A DNA stretch of 53,439 bases from an uncultured Clostridia bacterium. Lineage in GTDB: Bacteria > Bacillota > Clostridia > Christensenellales > Borkfalkiaceae. Within the stretch, counting starts at the first letter, position 1. Each line of letters begins with the position of its first letter. This document shows positions 40,693 through 49,206 of the stretch, piece after piece. The position numbers were made by a program, and so were the translations under genes. The notes beneath the pieces were generated by a model. It did no database searches, was not told the DNA's origin, and saw only the letters and a program-made list of their open reading frames with translations. The DNA is taken from NCBI GenBank assembly GCA_947626935.1, contig CANQUD010000010.1, forward strand, positions 1 to 53,439. Direction: 5' to 3'.

Positions 40693-42429
40693 TCAGATCT
40701 TTTCGATGTAAGCTTCCCTTCCGCCCTCTTCGACGGAATGGGCGATGTACGTGATGTGGTCGGCGGCACGCTCCAGATTGCCGACGAGGTTGATGAACAC
40801 GCTCGAGTTCTTCGGGTCGCATTTCCCCTCGTTGAGCCTGTCGATATGGGTGGAGACGAGCAGTTTTCTGTCCTCGTCGATCTCGTCCTCGAGCGCGTCG
40901 AGTTCGGGAAGTTTGCCCGTGTCCTTTTCGAGAAAGATCTCGAGGGTCAGCTCGTACAGGCGGCGGATCTTGGCATACATCGCGCGGAGCATCTCCAAAA
41001 ATTCGTCGGAGAACACGAGTTCGTCCTCGACGGTGTGGCGGGTGTACTTCGTGACGTTGTCCGCGAGTTCGCCGACACGCATGATGTCATTGAGCACATA
41101 GTGCAGATCGGAGACCGTCTTTTCGTCCTCGAGCGCCGCCGACTGCGCCGTCAGCTTCACGAGGTAAGAGACCCCCTTTCTGTTCGCCGCCGCCAGCTCC
41201 GCGTTGCGCTTGACGATCTCTTCCGTCACGGAGACGTCCCTGTTGAGGAAGGCGTCGAATGCCTTGTCGAGTTCCGCCATCGCATACGAGAACACCTTTC
41301 CCGTCTCCTGATACATATAGCCGAGCGCGACGGAGGGAGAGCGGAGCAGACGGTCGTCCAGTTCGCCGTACAGGTCCGCATGCACGTCCCCCTTCTCTTC
41401 CTGCTTCTTCTCGCGGACGAGGTGTTCCGCGATCCAGACGAACACCTTGACGAAGGGCAAAAACAGCAAGGTATTGACGGTATTGAAGAGAGTGTGGAAG
41501 AGGGCGATCTGCATCCCGGGCGCCATGTCCCTTCCCGCAAAGAGCATCTTGCCCGTCGGGAACACGGAGCCGAGCACGGTGTCCGCAAAGCCCGTCCAGC
41601 ACACGAGAATGACCATGAAGATGATCGCGCCGAAGAGGTTGAACAGGAAATGGATGAGCGCCGCCCGCTTCGCGTTGGGGCTTGCCCCGAGGGAAGAGAT
41701 GAGCGCCGTGACGCATGTGCCGATGTTGGAGCCGATGATGATGTAGAGCGCCGCATTCCCGCCCCCGCCGATCACGAGTCCCGACGAGACCATCGTCAAA
41801 ATGATGGCGTTGACGGCGGTCGAGGACTGCACGAGAGCGGTGATGACGATGCCGAGGAGAAGGAGCAGGCAGGGATTGGCGATCCTCTGCAGAATGCCCG
41901 AGACGGCATTGAACGCCGCTTCCCCTTCCGCCGTCGCCGTGTCGAAGGTCAACGCGCCCGACATGAATTTGAGTCCGACAAAGATGATGCCGAAGGCGGC
42001 GATGACGGAGCCGAGCGTGACGACGCGTTCCTTTTTCGAGAACATCATCATGAGGACGCCGACCGCGGCGAGAATGAAGAATAGGACGGTGATGTCCGAT
42101 CCGCCGAGGGCGATGACCCACGCGTTGAGCGTCGTGCCGATGTTCGCGCCCATGATGATGGCGGTCGCCTGAAAGAGCGTCATGATGCCCGCGTTGACGA
42201 GACCGACGACCATGACCGTCGTGAAGGCGGAACTCTGCCCGAGCACGGTGACGGCGGCGCCGATCCCGACGCCCGCAAAGCGGCTGTTCGCCGTCTTGTT
42301 GAGCATCTTTTTGAGCTTGCCGTGCGCGAGTTTCGTCATATTTTCGGACAGCATTCTCATGCCGATGAGGAAGGTCCCCATGCCCCCGAAAATCTCCAAT
42401 ACGATTGTTACGATCTCCCATGCGCCCAT
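40693..42429 (-). CDS. Na/Pi cotransporter with PhoU-like domain
   Basis: A 578-residue membrane protein. The two inverted transport repeats each carry the family motif: GQSSAFTTVMVVGLV near residue 63 and VQSSTAVNAIILTMV near 200. About nine hydrophobic helices end near residue 330. The C-terminal 200 residues are helical and resemble PhoU (SDLHYVLNDIMRVGELADNV, and NLERAADHITYIA). Such fused transporters take up phosphate with sodium and may sense phosphate state. It has its own promoter and no pst or pho genes beside it. Confidence 0.92.
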   Translation of the reverse strand: MGAWEIVTIVLEIFGGMGTFLIGMRMLSENMTKLAHGKLKKMLNKTANSRFAGVGIGAAVTVLGQSSAFTTVMVVGLVNAGIMTLFQATAIIMGANIGTTLNAWVIALGGSDITVLFFILAAVGVLMMMFSKKERVVTLGSVIAAFGIIFVGLKFMSGALTFDTATAEGEAAFNAVSGILQRIANPCLLLLLGIVITALVQSSTAVNAIILTMVSSGLVIGGGGNAALYIIIGSNIGTCVTALISSLGASPNAKRAALIHFLFNLFGAIIFMVILVCWTGFADTVLGSVFPTGKMLFAGRDMAPGMQIALFHTLFNTVNTLLFLPFVKVFVWIAEHLVREKKQEEKGDVHADLYGELDDRLLRSPSVALGYMYQETGKVFSYAMAELDKAFDAFLNRDVSVTEEIVKRNAELAAANRKGVSYLVKLTAQSAALEDEKTVSDLHYVLNDIMRVGELADNVTKYTRHTVEDELVFSDEFLEMLRAMYAKIRRLYELTLEIFLEKDTGKLPELDALEDEIDEDRKLLVSTHIDRLNEGKCDPKNSSVFINLVGNLERAADHITYIAHSVEEGGREAYIEKI

Positions 42430-42541: not shown

Positions 42542-43387
42542 TCAGACCGTAAAGACGGCTTGGACGGCGCCTTGGTAGTGTTCCGAGATGAAATCGATGA
42601 CCTTCTGCGTCTTGAGCGCCTTGAGGAGCGCCAACGTCTTGGGGTGCGTTTCATTCCCCGTCTTGACGGCGATGACGTTCGCGTAGAGCTGCGCCGCCGC
42701 CCCCTGTGCGTTCTCGAAGGCGAGCGCGGTCTTCGCGTCGAGTTTGGCTTGCAGGGCATAATTCCCGTTGATGACGGCGATCGTCCCCTCCGTCTCCTCT
42801 TTGAGGAGCAGGGCGACGGCCTCGGCGTTGACGGGACGGATGTGGTTTCCCTTGTCGTCCGTGATGTCGTGCTCGGTCAGATTGTTCTCGGGGGAAGCGT
42901 CGGCGGGAAGTTCGATATACCCCTCGTCGCGGAGCACGAAAAGCGCCCGCGTGAGATTGCTCCCGTCATTGGGGACGAGAATGGTCCTGCCCGTCTTGAC
43001 GGTGTCGAACTGCTCCTGCGTGACCCCGTTGCCGTAGACGCCGAAGGGTTCGTAGTGGATCTTTTCGACGGCGGTGAGCCGTGTGCCGCGTTCCTCGTTG
43101 AAGGTGTTGAGGTAGGGCGTGTGCTGGAAATAGTTCGCGTCGATCGATCCCTCGTCGAGGGCGGTGTTGGGGGTGATGTAGTCGTCGAACACCTTGACCT
43201 CGAGGGTGTAGCCCGCGGCGGAAAGGTCGTCGCGGACGGCTTCGAGGATCTCCGCGTGCGGGGTCGCGCTCGCGCCGACGACGATGACGTCGGGGTCGCT
43301 GTCGATGTTCCTGCCGCATGCGGCGAAGAAGGTGCATGAAGCGAGTGCAAGGGTCGCGGCAAGGATGCCTGTGAGAAGTTTTTTCAT
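42542..43387 (-). CDS. metQ: Methionine-binding lipoprotein MetQ (NlpA family)
   Basis: A 281-residue lipoprotein. The signal peptide (LTGILAATLALASCTFFAAC) ends in a lipobox with the acylated Cys near residue 24. The mature part carries IVVGASATPHAEILEAVRDD, DEGSIDANYFQHTPYLNTF and NDGSNLTRALFVLRDEGYI, the core of D/L-methionine-binding NlpA/MetQ proteins. It captures methionine outside the cell for MetNI. It is the third gene of the operon, with AAAGGAG before the ATG. Confidence 0.95.
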   Translation of the reverse strand: MKKLLTGILAATLALASCTFFAACGRNIDSDPDVIVVGASATPHAEILEAVRDDLSAAGYTLEVKVFDDYITPNTALDEGSIDANYFQHTPYLNTFNEERGTRLTAVEKIHYEPFGVYGNGVTQEQFDTVKTGRTILVPNDGSNLTRALFVLRDEGYIELPADASPENNLTEHDITDDKGNHIRPVNAEAVALLLKEETEGTIAVINGNYALQAKLDAKTALAFENAQGAAAQLYANVIAVKTGNETHPKTLALLKALKTQKVIDFISEHYQGAVQAVFTV

Positions 43388-43421: not shown

Positions 43422-44138
43422 TTATGTGCGCGTTTTGCGCGGTTTTGCCTTGGATCTCTTTGCCGTCATGCGGAGACGGCGGTCCGTCTTTCTCGCGAGG
43501 AACATGCCCACTTCCTGCACGATCTGGACGATGATGACGATGAGGACGACGCACAGCCAGATGACGTCCTCGGCGTTCGAGGGACGCGCCTGCGTGACGG
43601 CGATCGCTCCCAGTCCCCCGCCCGCGATCGTTCCCGCCATCGCCGAATATCCCAGCACGGTGACGGTGGAGATGACGGCGCCGACGATGAGTGAGGGCTT
43701 CGCCTCGGGCAGATAGACTTTGAAGATGATGGAGAAGAGTCCCGCCCCCATCGAACGCGCGGCTTCGATGACGCCCGCGTCCACTTCCTTGAGGGAACTT
43801 TCGACCATCCGCGCGACATAGGGCGCCGCAGCGACGGTCAGCATGAAGATCATCGCCTCATTTCCGATGCTCGTCCCGACGATCGCCCTTGCGACGGGGA
43901 TGAGCGCGACGATGAGGATGATGAAGGGAATGCTCCGAAAGACGTTGACGACAAAGCCGACGAGCCTGTGGAGCCATGCGAGCGGTCTCAATCCGTCCTT
44001 GCCTGTGACGCAGAGGAGGATCCCGACGGGAAGTCCGATGAGATAGGCGATCAATGTGGAGACGAAGGTCATGTAGAGCGTTTCGAGAACGCCGAGCAGG
44101 AATCCCTGTGCTCCGAGCTGGACGAAGAGGCGGCTCAT
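43422..44138 (-). CDS. metI: Methionine ABC transporter permease MetI
   Basis: A 238-residue membrane protein with about five helices. ETLYMTFVSTLIAYLIGLPV and NVFRSIPFIILIVALIPVAR near the N-terminus and the cytoplasmic coupling loop EAARSMGAGLFSIIFKVYLP are typical of MetI. The tail is strongly basic. The start at 44138 overlaps the metN stop as ATGA, so the genes are coupled; a longer upstream frame is not used. Confidence 0.95.
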   Translation of the reverse strand: MSRLFVQLGAQGFLLGVLETLYMTFVSTLIAYLIGLPVGILLCVTGKDGLRPLAWLHRLVGFVVNVFRSIPFIILIVALIPVARAIVGTSIGNEAMIFMLTVAAAPYVARMVESSLKEVDAGVIEAARSMGAGLFSIIFKVYLPEAKPSLIVGAVISTVTVLGYSAMAGTIAGGGLGAIAVTQARPSNAEDVIWLCVVLIVIIVQIVQEVGMFLARKTDRRLRMTAKRSKAKPRKTRT

Positions 44139-45124
44139 ATTTCCTCCTTGAACGAGACTTGATGCTGCAATAAAAATTCCTTGACTTTCTCCCCTTCCGC
44201 TTCCTCGGCGGGAAGGGCGATGACCATGTGCCCGAACGCCCTGCCGTCGATGTTCTTTGTGTCGGCGTAGAGAATGTTGACGGCGATCCCGCATTCGATG
44301 GCAAGTCTCGAGATGACGGGGCTGTCCGCCGTCTCCCCGTTAAACACGAGCCGCAGCTTTTTCCCGCCGCTGCTCTTGACCGAGCGGATGAGTTCGGGAA
44401 TGATGAGTTGCTTCGCAATTTCAGACTTGGGGTAGGAAAACACCTCGCTGACTTCCCCCTCTTCGACGATCTTGCTGCTGTCGAGGACGGCGACGCGGTC
44501 ACAGACGTTCTCCACGACCCGCATCTCGTGGGTGATGACGACGATCGTCACGCCGAGTTCGGAATTGATGCGGCGGAGAAGCTCCAGTATGGAATCGGTC
44601 GTCGCGGGGTCGAGGGCGCTCGTCGCCTCGTCGCAGAGGAGATATTTGGGCTTGGTCGCGAGCGCTCTTGCGATGGCGATCCGCTGTTTTTGCCCGCCCG
44701 AGAGCTGTGCGGGGTAGCTCTCCGCCTTGTCCGAAAGCCCCACGAGTTCGAGGAGTTCCTTCGTCCGTTCAGCCGCGTCCTTTCTGTTCACCCCCGCGAT
44801 CTCGAGGGGGAAACGCACATTCCCCTCCGCCGTCCGCTGTTCGAGCAGGTTGAAATTCTGGAAGATCATGCCGATGTTGCGGCGGATCTCTGGCAGACGT
44901 TTCTTCCCGATCGCGGTCAGTTCCTCGCCGTCGATGAACACCTGTCCGCGCGTGGGACGCTCAAGCAGGTTGATACATCGGACGAGGGTGCTCTTCCCCG
45001 CTCCCGAAAGCCCGATGATGCCGTAGATCTCGCCGTCCTTCACGGTGAGCGACACATCGTCGAGGGCAAGAATGACGCCGTCTTTCGAGGGGTATTCCTT
45101 GGTGATATGGCAAAGTTCGATCAT
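44135..45124 (-). CDS. metN: Methionine ABC transporter ATPase MetN
   Basis: A 329-residue ATPase. Walker A is GLSGAGKST, signature LSGGQKQR, Walker B YLLCDEATSALD, switch His in VITHEM. The C-terminal ~80 residues (from RLVFNGETADSPVISRLAIE) form the NIL/ACT-like domain that binds methionine and inhibits transport. Ribosome site AAAAGGAG. It heads the metN-metI-metQ operon, downstream of a 320-base leader with two Met-rich peptides and two terminators. Confidence 0.97.
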   Translation of the reverse strand: MIELCHITKEYPSKDGVILALDDVSLTVKDGEIYGIIGLSGAGKSTLVRCINLLERPTRGQVFIDGEELTAIGKKRLPEIRRNIGMIFQNFNLLEQRTAEGNVRFPLEIAGVNRKDAAERTKELLELVGLSDKAESYPAQLSGGQKQRIAIARALATKPKYLLCDEATSALDPATTDSILELLRRINSELGVTIVVITHEMRVVENVCDRVAVLDSSKIVEEGEVSEVFSYPKSEIAKQLIIPELIRSVKSSGGKKLRLVFNGETADSPVISRLAIECGIAVNILYADTKNIDGRAFGHMVIALPAEEAEGEKVKEFLLQHQVSFKEEI

Positions 45125-45158
45125 ATCTTTCTCTCCTTTTCAGATGTCAAAATAAAAA

Positions 45159-45180
45159 GCCCGCGGGGTGTTCCGCGGGC
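45159..45180 (-). terminator. Attenuator terminator 2, before metN
   Basis: Arms GCCCGCGG and CCGCGGGC, six-base loop, then TTTTTATTTT on the minus strand, ending 21 bases before the metN ribosome site. Confidence 0.88.
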
Positions 45181-45202
45181 AGCTCTTTCGGCGAAATTGC
45201 GG

Positions 45203-45280
45203 TCACGGCAGACCGCCCGCCGGGAGAGTCCCGCGGGTGCACATCTGCATCATGCCGATCGTCTGGAATGAATATAACAT
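45203..45280 (-). CDS. Methionine leader peptide 2
   Basis: A 25-residue peptide whose middle reads TIGMMQMCT, with three Met codons in four. GAGGAG and AAAGG precede the ATG. The frame ends inside a foldable region before terminator 2. It shares the run ATGATGCNNATGTGCA with leader peptide 1 but little else, as expected if codons, not the product, matter. Confidence 0.75.
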   Translation of the reverse strand: MLYSFQTIGMMQMCTRGTLPAGGLP

Positions 45281-45302
45281 AACCTTTCTCCTCAAAGAAA
45301 AA

Positions 45303-45328
45303 TGCCCGAGACTTGATCGTCTCGGGCA
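45303..45328 (-). terminator. Attenuator terminator 1
   Basis: Arms TGCCCGAGAC and GTCTCGGGCA form a 10-bp stem with a six-base loop, followed by TTTTTC on the minus strand. It lies 24 bases after the stop of leader peptide 1. Confidence 0.9.
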
Positions 45329-45351
45329 GAAAATGTCAACTTATCGCCGAT

Positions 45352-45432
45352 TTAACGCGCGGCAACAAGCCCGTACATCTCTGCCCGGACCTTGCACATG
45401 CGCATCATGTTGTTTTCGGCTGCGAAGAACAT
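45352..45432 (-). CDS. Methionine leader peptide 1
   Basis: A 26-residue peptide with five Met codons including the start; the cluster reads NNMMRMCKV, with another Met at position 19. AGGAG lies eight bases before the ATG. The product is too short for a domain and would serve as a sensor of charged Met-tRNA. Confidence 0.78.
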   Translation of the reverse strand: MFFAAENNMMRMCKVRAEMYGLVAAR

Positions 45433-45452
45433 ATCTCTTCTCCTATGCAAGG

Positions 45453-45482
45453 ATTGTATCACACCGAATTCCCGTTTGTCAA
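45453..45482 (-). promoter_or_regulatory. Promoter of the metNIQ operon
   Basis: TTGACA (45477-45482), 18-base spacer, TACAAT (45453-45458), predicted start 45446, 14 bases before leader peptide 1. Confidence 0.8.
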
Positions 45483-45800: not shown

Positions 45801-45942
45801 TCTCGGCTTCGCCGTCGGCGGCTCCTTTTCCCAAAAAAATACTTCGTCTTTTTTTGGGAACCCTATGCTGTGACCAAGAGGTCGCGGACAAACCGCACCT
45901 GAATCACAAACGGACGGAAGGGGAACCCCTTCCGTCCGTTTG
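45801..45942. repeat. Truncated copy of the tRNA-linked unit
   Basis: Contains the A/T hairpin CCCAAAAAAA/TTTTTTTGGG (45830-45858), the tRNA-like piece GACCAAGAGGTCGC in inverted orientation (45869-45882), and a 40-base palindrome with arms CACAAACGGACGGAAGGGG and complement (45905-45944). This palindrome occupies the place of the tRNA terminator but has a wholly different sequence. Confidence 0.65.
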
Positions 45943-46156
45943 TGGTCGAGGAGACGTGATTTGAACACGCGACCGCGTCGCCGCAAGCTGCGCTTTTTCG
46001 CCTTTTGTATCCCAAAAGGCTATTTTCGCTCCGCTACGGCTCCTTTTCCCAAAAAAATACTGCGTCTTTTTTTGGGATCCCTGTGCTGTGACCAAGAGGT
46101 CGCTGCAACACGCATCACACCAAAACAGGGCACAGACAAACGTCTGTGCCCTGTTT
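45943..46156 (-). repeat. 214-bp unit 1 with tRNA-Pro 3'-end copy
   Basis: Bases 45943-45974 copy the last 32 bases of the tRNA-Pro gene, including CCA. They are followed by ~115 bases of structured element, an inverted tRNA-like piece (46090-46104) and half of the terminator-like hairpin. The unit repeats at exactly 214 bases. Confidence 0.8.
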
Positions 46157-46370
46157 TGGTCGAGGAGACGTGATTTGAACACGCGACCGCGTCGCCGCAA
46201 GCTTCACTTTTTCGCCTTTTGTATCCCAAAAGGCTATTTTCGCTCCGCTGCGGCTCCTTTTCCCAAAAAAATACTGCGTCTTTTTTTGGGATCCCTGTGC
46301 TGTGGCCAAGAGGTCGCTGCAACACACATCACACCAAAACAGGGCACAGACAAACGTCTGTGCCCTGTTT
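46157..46370 (-). repeat. 214-bp unit 2 with tRNA-Pro 3'-end copy
   Basis: Bases 46157-46188 again copy the tRNA-Pro 3' end including CCA. The unit is about 95% identical to unit 1 and abuts the real tRNA gene. It contains the hairpins 46262-46290 and 46333-46374. Confidence 0.8.
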
Positions 46371-46374
46371 TGGT
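46333..46374 (-). terminator. Hairpin after tRNA-Pro
   Basis: Arms ACCAAAACAGGGCACAGAC and complement with an AAAC/GTTT loop, beginning in the tRNA CCA end. The inner arms end in TTTT, so it can work as a terminator. The same hairpin ends unit 2 (46119-46160). Confidence 0.7.
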
Positions 46375-46447
46375 CGAGGAGACGTGATTTGAACACGCGA
46401 CCTCTTGGTCCCGAACCAAGCGCGCTACCAAACTGCGCTACTCCTCG
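46371..46447 (-). tRNA. tRNA-Pro (anticodon CGG)
   Basis: A 77-base cloverleaf with CCA encoded. Acceptor arms CGAGGAG and CTCCTCG pair fully; the anticodon stem CTTGG/CCAAG encloses TTCGGGA, giving anticodon CGG; the T loop is TTCAAAT. It is the only complete tRNA in the window. Two partial copies of its 3' end lie downstream. Confidence 0.93.
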
Positions 46448-46536: not shown

Positions 46537-46565
46537 TTGACTTTTCCGCTTTTCCCTCTTATAAT
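46537..46565 (+). promoter_or_regulatory. Consensus promoter of tnaA
   Basis: TTGACT (46537-46542), 17-base spacer, TATAAT (46560-46565), with a short leader containing AAGGAGG. There is no room for a tnaC-type peptide. Confidence 0.88.
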
Positions 46566-46594: not shown

Positions 46595-47974
46595 ATGAAA
46601 CCCAATTACTATCCCGAGCCTTTCCGCATCAAGAGTGTGGAACCGCTCAAGATCCTGACGCGGAAGGAGCGCGAAGAAAAGATCGCCGCGGCAAATTACA
46701 ACGTCTTTTCGCTCGCCGCAACGGACGTCTATATCGACCTTCTGACGGACAGCGGAACGGGCGCGATGTCGAGCGCCCAGTGGGCAGGCGTCATGGTCGG
46801 CGACGAGTCGTACGCAGGCGCTGAAAGCTACTATAAGTTGCAGGAATCTGCAAAAGAAGTGTTCTCTCTCCCCTACATCCAGATCGTCCATCAGGGGCGT
46901 GCGGCGGAGAAAGTTCTCCTTCCCATTCTGCTCGAGGGGAAGAAGTATGCCATCGCGAACATGCACTTCGACACGACCCGCGCCCATGTGGAACTGGCGG
47001 GCGCCCGTGCCATCGACTGCGTCGTTCCCGAGGCGCTTGATACTGCTACATATTACGATTTTAAGGGAAATATGGACTGCGAAAAGCTCGAGTCGCTCAT
47101 TCACGAACTCGGCGCGGAGAACATCGGCGTCGTCATCATGACGATCACGAACAACTCCGCAGGCGGGCAGCCCGTCTCCGTCGAAAATATCCGAAAAACG
47201 GCAAAAATCGCACACAGGTATGCAATTCCGTTCATGATCGATGCCGCACGCTGCGCCGAAAACGCCTATTTTGTCAAGCAGCGCGAAGCGGAATTCAAGG
47301 ACAGTTCCATTCAGGAGATCATCCACGCCTGCTTTGCCGAAGCGGACTGCTTCACGATGAGCGCCAAGAAGGACGCGATCGTCAACATGGGCGGTCTCAT
47401 CGGCTGCAGGGAGAAGTCCCTCTTCGAGGCGGTGAAACAGCGCACGATCTCCTTTGAAGGCTTCGTCACCTACGGCGGCATGTCGGGCAGGGACATCGAG
47501 GCGCTCGCGATCGGACTGCGGGAAGGCATCGACGAGCATTTCCTTCGCTACCGCATCGGGCAGATGGAATACCTCGCGGCGCGGCTCGACGAGGCAGGGA
47601 TCCCCTATCAAAGCCCTGTCGGCGGGCATGCCGTGTTCGTCGACGCGAAGAAGGTCCTTCCCCACATTCCCTACTATCAATTCCCCGCGCAGGCGCTCGC
47701 CGTCGAACTGTATCTCGAAGCGGGGATCCGCGCGTGCGACATCGGCTCCTTCCTTCTCGGGAACGACCCCGACACGGGAAAGCAGCTCGAGGCTGACTTT
47801 GAATTCACGCGGCTCGCGATCCCCCGTCGCGTCTACACCCAGTCCCACCTCGACGTCATCGCCGACGCGCTCATCAACATCAAGGAACGCGCGTCCTCGA
47901 TCAAGGGCTACAAGATCGTCGAGGAACCGCCGATCCTCCGCCACTTCACGGCGAAGCTCAAACCCATCGACTGA
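46595..47974 (+). CDS. tnaA: Tryptophanase
   Basis: A 459-residue PLP enzyme splitting tryptophan into indole, pyruvate and ammonia. It carries [19 protein letters not shown], the PLP lysine in [12 protein letters not shown], and the C-terminal [15 protein letters not shown] and [11 protein letters not shown]. Tyrosine phenol-lyase is the close alternative, but two positions favour tryptophanase: HFDTTRAH has Asp where phenol-lyases have Thr, and IRACDIGSF has Ile where they have the substrate-binding Arg. No tryptophan permease follows. Indole production would be a metabolic output of this bacterium. Confidence 0.9.
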
Positions 47975-48727: not shown

Positions 48728-49206
48728 GATACGAGCGGACCTATAAGCCGGGTTCTGTCGAGCGCGGTCATTTATCTACGCCTTCCGTCACCGAAAGGCT
48801 CCAGCGTTATTCACGGACCTTCTCGGGCGGGCAACCCTGTGTGAAAAGGTCCCAAACTTGCATCGGACGGGGTTTACATGGCACGGGGCGTTACCGTCCC
48901 GTCGGTGAGCTCTTACCTCGCCTTTCCATCCTTGCCTCGTCGAAGCAAATCTCACGTTCCGCTCTTCGCTCACGCAAAGAGCGCGTTTCGTTCGATTGCT
49001 TCTCCTCTTCCCAAAAAATCTTGCTACGCAATCTTTTTCGGGACCCCTGCGAAAAAAAGGGTCAAAAGAGGGACGGGCGGTCTATTTCTGTTGCACTTTC
49101 CTTGAAGTCACCTTCACCTGACGTTATCAGGCGTCCTGCCCTGCGATGCCCGGACTTTCCTCATCGTGCGCAAAAGCACGCCGCGACCGCGTAGTCCGCT
49201 CGTATC
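48728..49206 (-). ncRNA. rnpB: RNase P RNA
   Basis: The catalytic RNA of RNase P, which matures tRNA 5' ends. Conserved blocks are clear on the minus strand: GAGGAAAGTCCGGGC near the 5' end, the CAGGGCAGGA-type loop, AACAGAAATAGACCGCC, the GGCGAGGTAAGAGCTCACC element, GATAAATGACCGC near the 3' end, and a closing P1 stem between GATACGAGCGGAC and GTCCGCTCGTATC. The length (~479) is about 80-100 bases above the usual type A because of an insertion in the P12 region (48937-49062). TATAAT (49213-49218) is the probable -10. Confidence 0.93.
48937..49062 (-). repeat. Structured element inserted in rnpB
   Basis: This stretch lies where the variable P12 helix sits. It carries the motif also found in the units at 46189-46290 and 48544-48646: AGAGGAG, a 4-bp stem AAGC/GCTT, a hairpin, and CGACGA, followed by a CCCGAAAAAGAT.../...TTTTTTGGG hairpin. 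Confidence 0.7.

Follow-up and report, generated by a model that had tools for sequence, protein, structure and literature searches.

Upstream of the metNIQ genes in the 53,439-nt stretch of DNA analysed here (the window), which comes from a gut member of the Clostridia, lies a leader that we read as two ribosome-mediated transcription attenuators in series, which would gauge charged elongator Met-tRNA and switch the transporter genes accordingly. On the strength of modelled folds and comparison between genomes, we give this reading a probability of roughly 0.87. The 360 nt upstream of metN on the minus strand hold one promoter-like site and two serial modules, each running from a Shine-Dalgarno site through a short frame with a Met cluster to an intrinsic terminator (Table 1). 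Those attenuator features that can be tested on sequence appear in both modules, less sharply in module 2 than in module 1.

In the proposed mechanism, a shortage of methionine would stall the ribosome at the Met codons, with its leading edge short of the antiterminator arm. The freed arm could then pair with the 5′ half of the terminator once this is transcribed, and RNA polymerase would read on. With ample methionine, the ribosome would proceed, cover the arm and finish at the stop codon; a small hairpin would re-form behind it and the terminator would form. RNA polymerase would have to pass two such checkpoints in the window, which may give less leakage and a steeper response.

Table 1. Features of the metNIQ locus and its two-module leader (window positions)
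Feature	Position	Strand	Basis or remark
Whole two-module leader	45125-45482	minus	upstream of metNIQ
-35 hexamer TTGACA	45477..45482	minus	promoter scan and sequence
-10 hexamer TACAAT, TG preceding, spacer 18	45453..45458	minus	promoter scan and sequence
Shine-Dalgarno site of frame 1, AGGAGA	45439..45444	minus	sequence
Leader frame 1, MFFAAENNMMRMCKVRAEMYGLVAAR, 26 codons + stop	45352..45432	minus	ORF; homologues in relatives
Met cluster 1, ATG ATG CGC ATG (MMRM)	45397..45408	minus	sequence
Antiterminator 1, 5′ arm (segments A + B), within frame 1	45360..45388	minus	predicted fold
Antiterminator 1, 3′ arm (segments E + C); C overlaps terminator 1 5′ arm	45323..45349	minus	predicted fold
Intrinsic terminator 1, 10 pairs, then TTTTTC	45303..45328	minus	terminator scan and fold
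Shine-Dalgarno site of frame 2	45283..45293	minus	sequence
Leader frame 2, MLYSFQTIGMMQMCTRGTLPAGGLP, 25 codons + stop	45203..45280	minus	ORF
Met cluster 2, ATG ATG CAG ATG (MMQM)	45242..45253	minus	sequence
Antiterminator 2, 5′ part, inner GCGGTC/GACCGC stem around stop codon	45199..45237	minus	predicted fold
Antiterminator 2, 3′ arm, ends in terminator 2 5′ arm	45173..45193	minus	predicted fold
Intrinsic terminator 2, 8 G-C pairs, then TTTTTATTTT	45159..45180	minus	terminator scan
Shine-Dalgarno region of metN	45127..45140	minus	sequence
metN, ATP-binding protein	44135..45124 (ATG 45124)	minus	best NCBIfam MetN, 370 bits; cut-off 499.7
metI, permease, start codon inferred	43422..44138	minus	best NCBIfam MetI, 193 bits; cut-off 212
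metQ, substrate-binding lipoprotein	42542..43387	minus	best NCBIfam MetQ, 116 bits; cut-off 374

Layout of the leader and its surroundings

The first-pass annotation had described one promoter followed by two modules, each with a ribosome site, a 25-26-residue Met frame and a terminator, and the scans bear this out. The promoter-like site (45482..45453) shows 11 of 12 matches, and the promoter scan found no second minus-strand promoter-like site between the modules, so both probably lie in series on one transcript. The names metN, metI and metQ follow the best NCBIfam matches, all three of which score below the curated cut-off. A segment complementary to the terminator 5′ arm had also been pointed out in each frame. 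The pairing is real, joining CGGGCAGA (45387..45380) to TCTGCCCG (45330..45323) in module 1 and CCGCGGG to CCCGCGG in module 2, but it forms merely the outer part of longer predicted antiterminators. In the 1.675-Mb draft genome the pattern ATGATGNNNATGTGY has three matches, two of them in the window leader, and its reversed control none; the third match (L003) runs antisense within a 901-codon frame and was rejected as a leader.

No T-box (RF00230) match was found in the window. The Rfam scan of the window leader returned no family at its gathering score, and three matches with E-values of 0.09-0.57, far under gathering, were rejected. A SAM riboswitch was rejected as well: RF00162 matches 3 of 14 control genomes and nothing in the draft genome. 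Elsewhere in this genome, two T-box matches that fall short of the gathering score (L001 432-645; L002 1501-1679; 87 and 59 bits) precede frames that we take to be pheS and thrS, so that T-box control has probably not been lost genome-wide.

Around the locus, a Na/Pi symporter-like protein whose C-terminal part is PhoU-like (40693-42429) adjoins metQ on the same strand. Repeats at 45818-46402, comprising direct repeats of 214 nt (two copies, 97%) and a 35-nt unit in three copies, overlap the 3′ part of the tRNA-Pro(CGG) gene (46371-46447, minus strand) and represent partial tRNA copies in series beside this intact gene. A gene of tryptophanase/tyrosine phenol-lyase type (46595-47974; 718 bits to NCBIfam PRK13238) has a promoter-like site at 46537-46565, and positions 48728-49202 of the minus strand encode RNase P RNA of class A (274.7 bits).

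Met leaders and T-boxes at metN in the family

A MetN match of more than 290 bits is present in 26 of 151 family genomes, all 151 having weaker ABC-transporter matches. Upstream of the 26 metN loci we read a Met leader in 14 cases, a T-box in nine and a metQ-like frame directly upstream in three. The 14 Met-leader loci amount to 15 modules, as the window locus has two. T-boxes sit at the same place before metN in close relatives; eight of the nine pass the Rfam RF00230 gathering score and the ninth (L020) was recognised by its core motif alone. We infer their Met specificity from this position before metN. For the 11 Met-leader relatives included in an Rfam scan of 20 loci, no family matched. 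A MetN tree of 54 rows needs three changes between T-box and leader. Since the leader alternates with a T-box between close relatives, the exchange of tRNA-charging sensors can be traced at a single gene.

The first-pass annotation had proposed to look for the same arrangement at metN homologues and to compare the conservation of Met codons with that of other codons. Relatives do keep the short frame, the Met cluster and the terminator, and Met-x-Met is kept in all 13 family modules compared, whereas the three following codons vary. Its proposed motif MMxMC holds for this Met-x-Met core but not for the C, which follows the last Met in 2 of 13 family modules (8 of 25 non-redundant modules). The Arg within Met-x-Met is kept in 11 of 13 family modules, and so is the Arg-Ala of the RNA arm; eight of the 13 have an extra Met three codons ahead of the last one.

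L046 has the same pair of modules as the window. The second frame there (L046b) has no stop before metN and crosses the terminator into the metN start. In genome G476 (L123/L143, the same as L039), metN is preceded by two nearly identical modules with a spacing of about 163 nt. The 54-row MetN tree groups the window with L046 as its sister and places L123 elsewhere; by parsimony, serial duplication thus arose at least two times, and the duplication in G476 is apparently independent of that in the window.

Alternative RNA structures

A total of 34 homologous modules was assembled for structural comparison. We call the two halves of the stretch after the Met codons A and B, the segment after the stop codon E, and the terminator arms C and D. 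When A pairs with C and B with E, a single long helix results whose loop region contains the stop codon; this is the predicted antiterminator. For a ribosome halted on the first Met codon, and before D is made, the predicted antiterminators of the window reach -38.7 kcal/mol (module 1) and -41.8 kcal/mol (module 2), and their 5′ arms begin 8 nt and 4 nt after the last Met codon, respectively. Since the antiterminator also uses the terminator 5′ arm, the two predicted structures are mutually exclusive. The stop codon stands 16-41 nt ahead of the terminator arm in 33 of 34 modules, and strong terminators (script score of at least 25) were found in 31 of the 34 against 0.15 in shuffles.

A small hairpin between A and B is also possible, and its loop is often of the GNRA type. 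In an alignment of 12 modules made without structure (A1), 96.4% of its cells are paired and one of seven pairs has changed on both sides. The corresponding values for 33 distinct rows are 96.0% and three of seven pairs, in an alignment (A2) that was fitted to the structure of the covariance model R1 described below. The loop-closing pair in these 33 rows is A-U in 19, U-A in four, G-C in three, U-G in one and unpaired in three. As a lone switch the hairpin was dropped, since a stall would then terminate; the A:C plus B:E helix fits better.

Exchanging segments among 25 non-redundant modules supports the long helix, within a design that, like the shuffle tests, leaves kinship among modules in place. 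A module's own A:C and own B:E pairings are more stable than exchanged ones, with none of 2000 exchanges as good in either case, and its own C:D pairing is likewise more stable than exchanged. In the same 25 modules, A:E was no better within a module (1903 of 2000) and within-module A:B was not distinguishable from exchanged A:B (335 of 2000).

Leaders across the order and class

R1, a covariance model of the Met cluster and following hairpin built from 12 modules, gave 28 matches in 27 of 396 genomes of the order. Each of the 19 strong matches (E no higher than 2.8e-4) is immediately followed by metN; they come from families f1, f3, f16, f19 and f32. The nine weaker ones (L134-L142, E 6e-4 to 0.0098), which are not before metN, were dropped as noise. 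As 12 of these modules served to build R1, the Met-x-Met of its finds is partly there by construction. R1 also misses leaders of other types.

For a search independent of structure we used a criterion chosen after the first peptides had been seen: at least three Met in eight codons, an SD-like site, a length of 10-50 codons and an end 30-260 nt before metN (20-260 nt in the class survey). Met-rich leaders of this kind stand in 49 of 117 metN upstream regions of the order, against a mean of 0.65 and a maximum of 3 in shuffles; the 49 regions correspond to 21 of 47 genera, regions of one genus not being independent. Under the same criterion residues other than Met gave, for instance, 8 regions against 3.2 in shuffles (Cys), 38 against 34.6 (Arg) and 2 against 0.5 (Trp), so that Met is the sole residue in large excess. 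In the class survey, which took 80 of the listed metN places picked for spread over families, eight regions from six families qualify (shuffles 0.45, maximum 2). Genomes with Met leaders include G697 (family f38, one contig) and G745 (f58, three contigs), both of which may come from isolates. Met-rich frames also occur in two Lachnospiraceae records (L099, L104). The Rfam scan covered 40 of 80 regions in the order set; in the further set of 80 loci it covered L036-L055, and leader analysis covered 58, with 22 left out (mostly Bacilli).

Outside the 34-module set, 39 further leaders were collected, 32 from the order set and seven from other loci, among them one weak R1 match (L144). Their sequences differ, in-frame Met codons behind an SD-like site recur, and by eye they have Met codons in common and no evident common peptide sequence. 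A terminator-like site precedes metN in 38 of the 39, as judged by a lax script that also hits about 30 of 39 shuffled leaders; strength alone is beyond chance, with strong terminators in 28 of 39 against 0.05 in shuffles. Terminators as strong as those of the window do not arise in shuffled leaders.

Sensing of cysteine was rejected: Cys makes up 10.4% of the 39 further leaders against 8.9% of dinucleotide-shuffled frames (maximum 10.7%), and another reading frame holds more Cys. Five leaders of f4 g103 (L184, L187, L188, L192 and L196) have Cys-rich tails, for example CYLCCVA, after the Met cluster at a position that looks regular; composition mostly explains the Cys excess of the whole set. 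Beside one metN locus, a ZMP/ZTP riboswitch match lies on the opposite strand to metN (L156 285-368).

These surveys bear on whether the frames are read at all. A riboswitch or tRNA-binding RNA with incidental ATG triplets would account for the A:B hairpin, a kept structure with covariation and a GNRA-like loop, but hardly for in-frame Met codons recurring behind an SD-like site in 39 leaders from outside the homologous set, nor for a Met excess of 49 of 117 regions over 0.65 that has no counterpart in other residues. With no Rfam family reaching its gathering score over the window leader, we hold this to be the least probable of three alternatives to attenuation by translated Met codons.

Modelled position of the switch

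To locate the predicted switch, the first free base after the ribosome was moved along each leader, and the uptake of C by upstream sequence was followed before D is made. Averaged over 34 modules, sequestration of C is 0.82, 0.83, 0.82 and 0.81 from -3 to +6 of the last Met codon, declines to 0.77 at +9, 0.54 at +12, 0.31 at +15 and 0.23 at +18, and rises again to 0.36 at +21 and 0.38 at +24. The mean drop is 0.52, compared with 0.03 (maximum 0.09 in 20 shuffles) when the stretch between Met cluster and terminator is shuffled. The footprint of a ribosome usually reaches some 13 nt downstream of the A site. Combined with the scan, this implies that the antiterminator would remain intact with a ribosome paused at the earlier Met codons, would be about half intact with one at the last Met codon, and would be disrupted by one past that point. 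In the model, the antiterminator is available solely with the ribosome edge positioned at the Met codons.

A sharp drop after the Met codons was not found for window module 2 (-0.09) or for L046b (0.11); in window module 2, other G-C-rich stretches keep C paired until the ribosome is close to the stop codon. Across 38 of the further leaders, uptake of the terminator arm falls from 0.65 when the ribosome stands on the cluster's first Met to 0.25 when it has reached the stop codon; the drop of 0.43 is a modest excess over the shuffled 0.28 (maximum 0.35). Nine of the 38 have a drop below 0.25 (L145, L146, L158, L186, L205, L206, L208, L053 and L055).

When D is included, equilibrium folds of several modules favour the terminator at every scanned ribosome position. 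Its probability never falls below 0.93 in L011, L014 and L015 or below 0.83 in window module 2; in L006a, L008, L009, L010, L012 and L021 it dips to 0.04-0.52 with the edge near the Met codons. With the terminator favoured at all positions in several modules, the switch must be kinetic, the antiterminator forming first.

Some resistance-gene leaders sense slow translation in general, and the metN leaders could be suspected of the same, as any modelled stall upstream of the antiterminator arm frees the arm in most modules. Met, however, is the sole residue in large excess, the switch falls at the last Met codon, and each of the 19 strong R1 matches precedes a methionine-transporter gene; a sensor that is not methionine-specific is therefore highly improbable, ranking second to last. 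The remaining alternative involves the nascent chain itself. Arrest peptides that sense small molecules exist, TnaC being an example, and a compact, kept Met cluster might similarly let a Met-rich chain stall the ribosome with methionine or S-adenosylmethionine and set the fold. Stalling at the Met codons, though, promotes the antiterminator, so that a stall caused by a ligand would switch uptake on in the presence of abundant methionine; turning genes on suits starvation rather than a ligand signalling plenty. Moreover, the lack of an evident common peptide among the further leaders fits codon reading and not a ligand pocket. Arrest by a ligand, the best placed of the three alternatives, is thus itself very unlikely, and reading of charged elongator Met-tRNA at the Met codons stays our preferred account.

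Implications

Beyond the window, we lean somewhat towards a broad unnamed class of Met leader attenuators in Clostridia, replacing T-boxes or SAM riboswitches at metN and gauging elongator Met-tRNA. In some lineages it would be serially duplicated into a two-step gate, so that failure of initiation (fMet) and of elongation could feed one uptake decision. A leader peptide would then be a third methionine device at the same gene in many lineages, beside SAM riboswitches and T-boxes. As methionine is also the initiating amino acid, such leaders would provide a natural test of how the supplies of elongator and initiator Met-tRNA are separated. Serial attenuators would be a simple system, provided by nature, in which to measure how successive termination steps multiply, and the leader system may predict when these uncultured bacteria switch on methionine uptake.

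Comparison with known systems

The usual devices for methionine control in Bacillota are SAM riboswitches and T-boxes. Much like the window leader, the T-box (RF00230) of sister loci stands at the same place before the same gene, controls a terminator and senses tRNA charging; unlike the leader, it binds uncharged tRNA directly by RNA and has no reading frame. The SAM (S-box) riboswitch RF00162, which controls methionine genes by termination in Bacillota, differs from the window leader in binding SAM. Classical ribosome-mediated attenuators are the trp, his, leu, thr and phe leaders of Proteobacteria. The window modules resemble these in their clustered codons for the regulated amino acid, an antiterminator overlapping the frame, a stop codon before the terminator and a terminator arm common to the antiterminator. 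They depart from them in the amino acid (methionine), the Bacillota host, the arrangement of two attenuators in series and a kept small hairpin in the antiterminator arm that comes after the regulatory codons, not over them.

In bacilli, His leader peptides of hisS paralogues are reported by Naville and Gautheret to replace T-boxes (PMC2965389). The window system is similar in being a putative leader-peptide attenuator of Bacillota in the place of a T-box; the His leaders differ in responding to histidine, in belonging to a tRNA-synthetase family and in that no tandem is reported in the available part of that source (PMC2965389).

Regarding methionine, the available part of a 2005 survey of Actinobacteria reports that their methionine operons showed no conserved RNA structure (PMC1262725). 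In Streptomyces lividans a leader peptide, metL, with the sequence MSTTSDRTPATEATTTPGARCMCRRMCAF, is predicted before metNIQ (PMC8079986). Its transcript is leaderless and, according to the authors in the available text, a typical Rho-independent termination structure is missing (PMC8079986). The first-pass annotation knew of no described Met attenuator of the present kind; this has to yield to the predicted S. lividans Met leader, itself described without a typical terminator. That leader is the one earlier metNIQ Met leader found in a search of the open literature, with subscription journals mostly outside it, and others may exist. The window shares with S. lividans metL a short Met-containing frame before metNIQ, whereas metL belongs to another phylum, is a single leader and, in the available text, is given no comparative support (PMC8079986). 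What appears to be new here, judged from sequence comparison, is a predicted methionine-specific attenuator that is widespread in Clostridia, swaps with T-boxes and, in the window, occurs in series.
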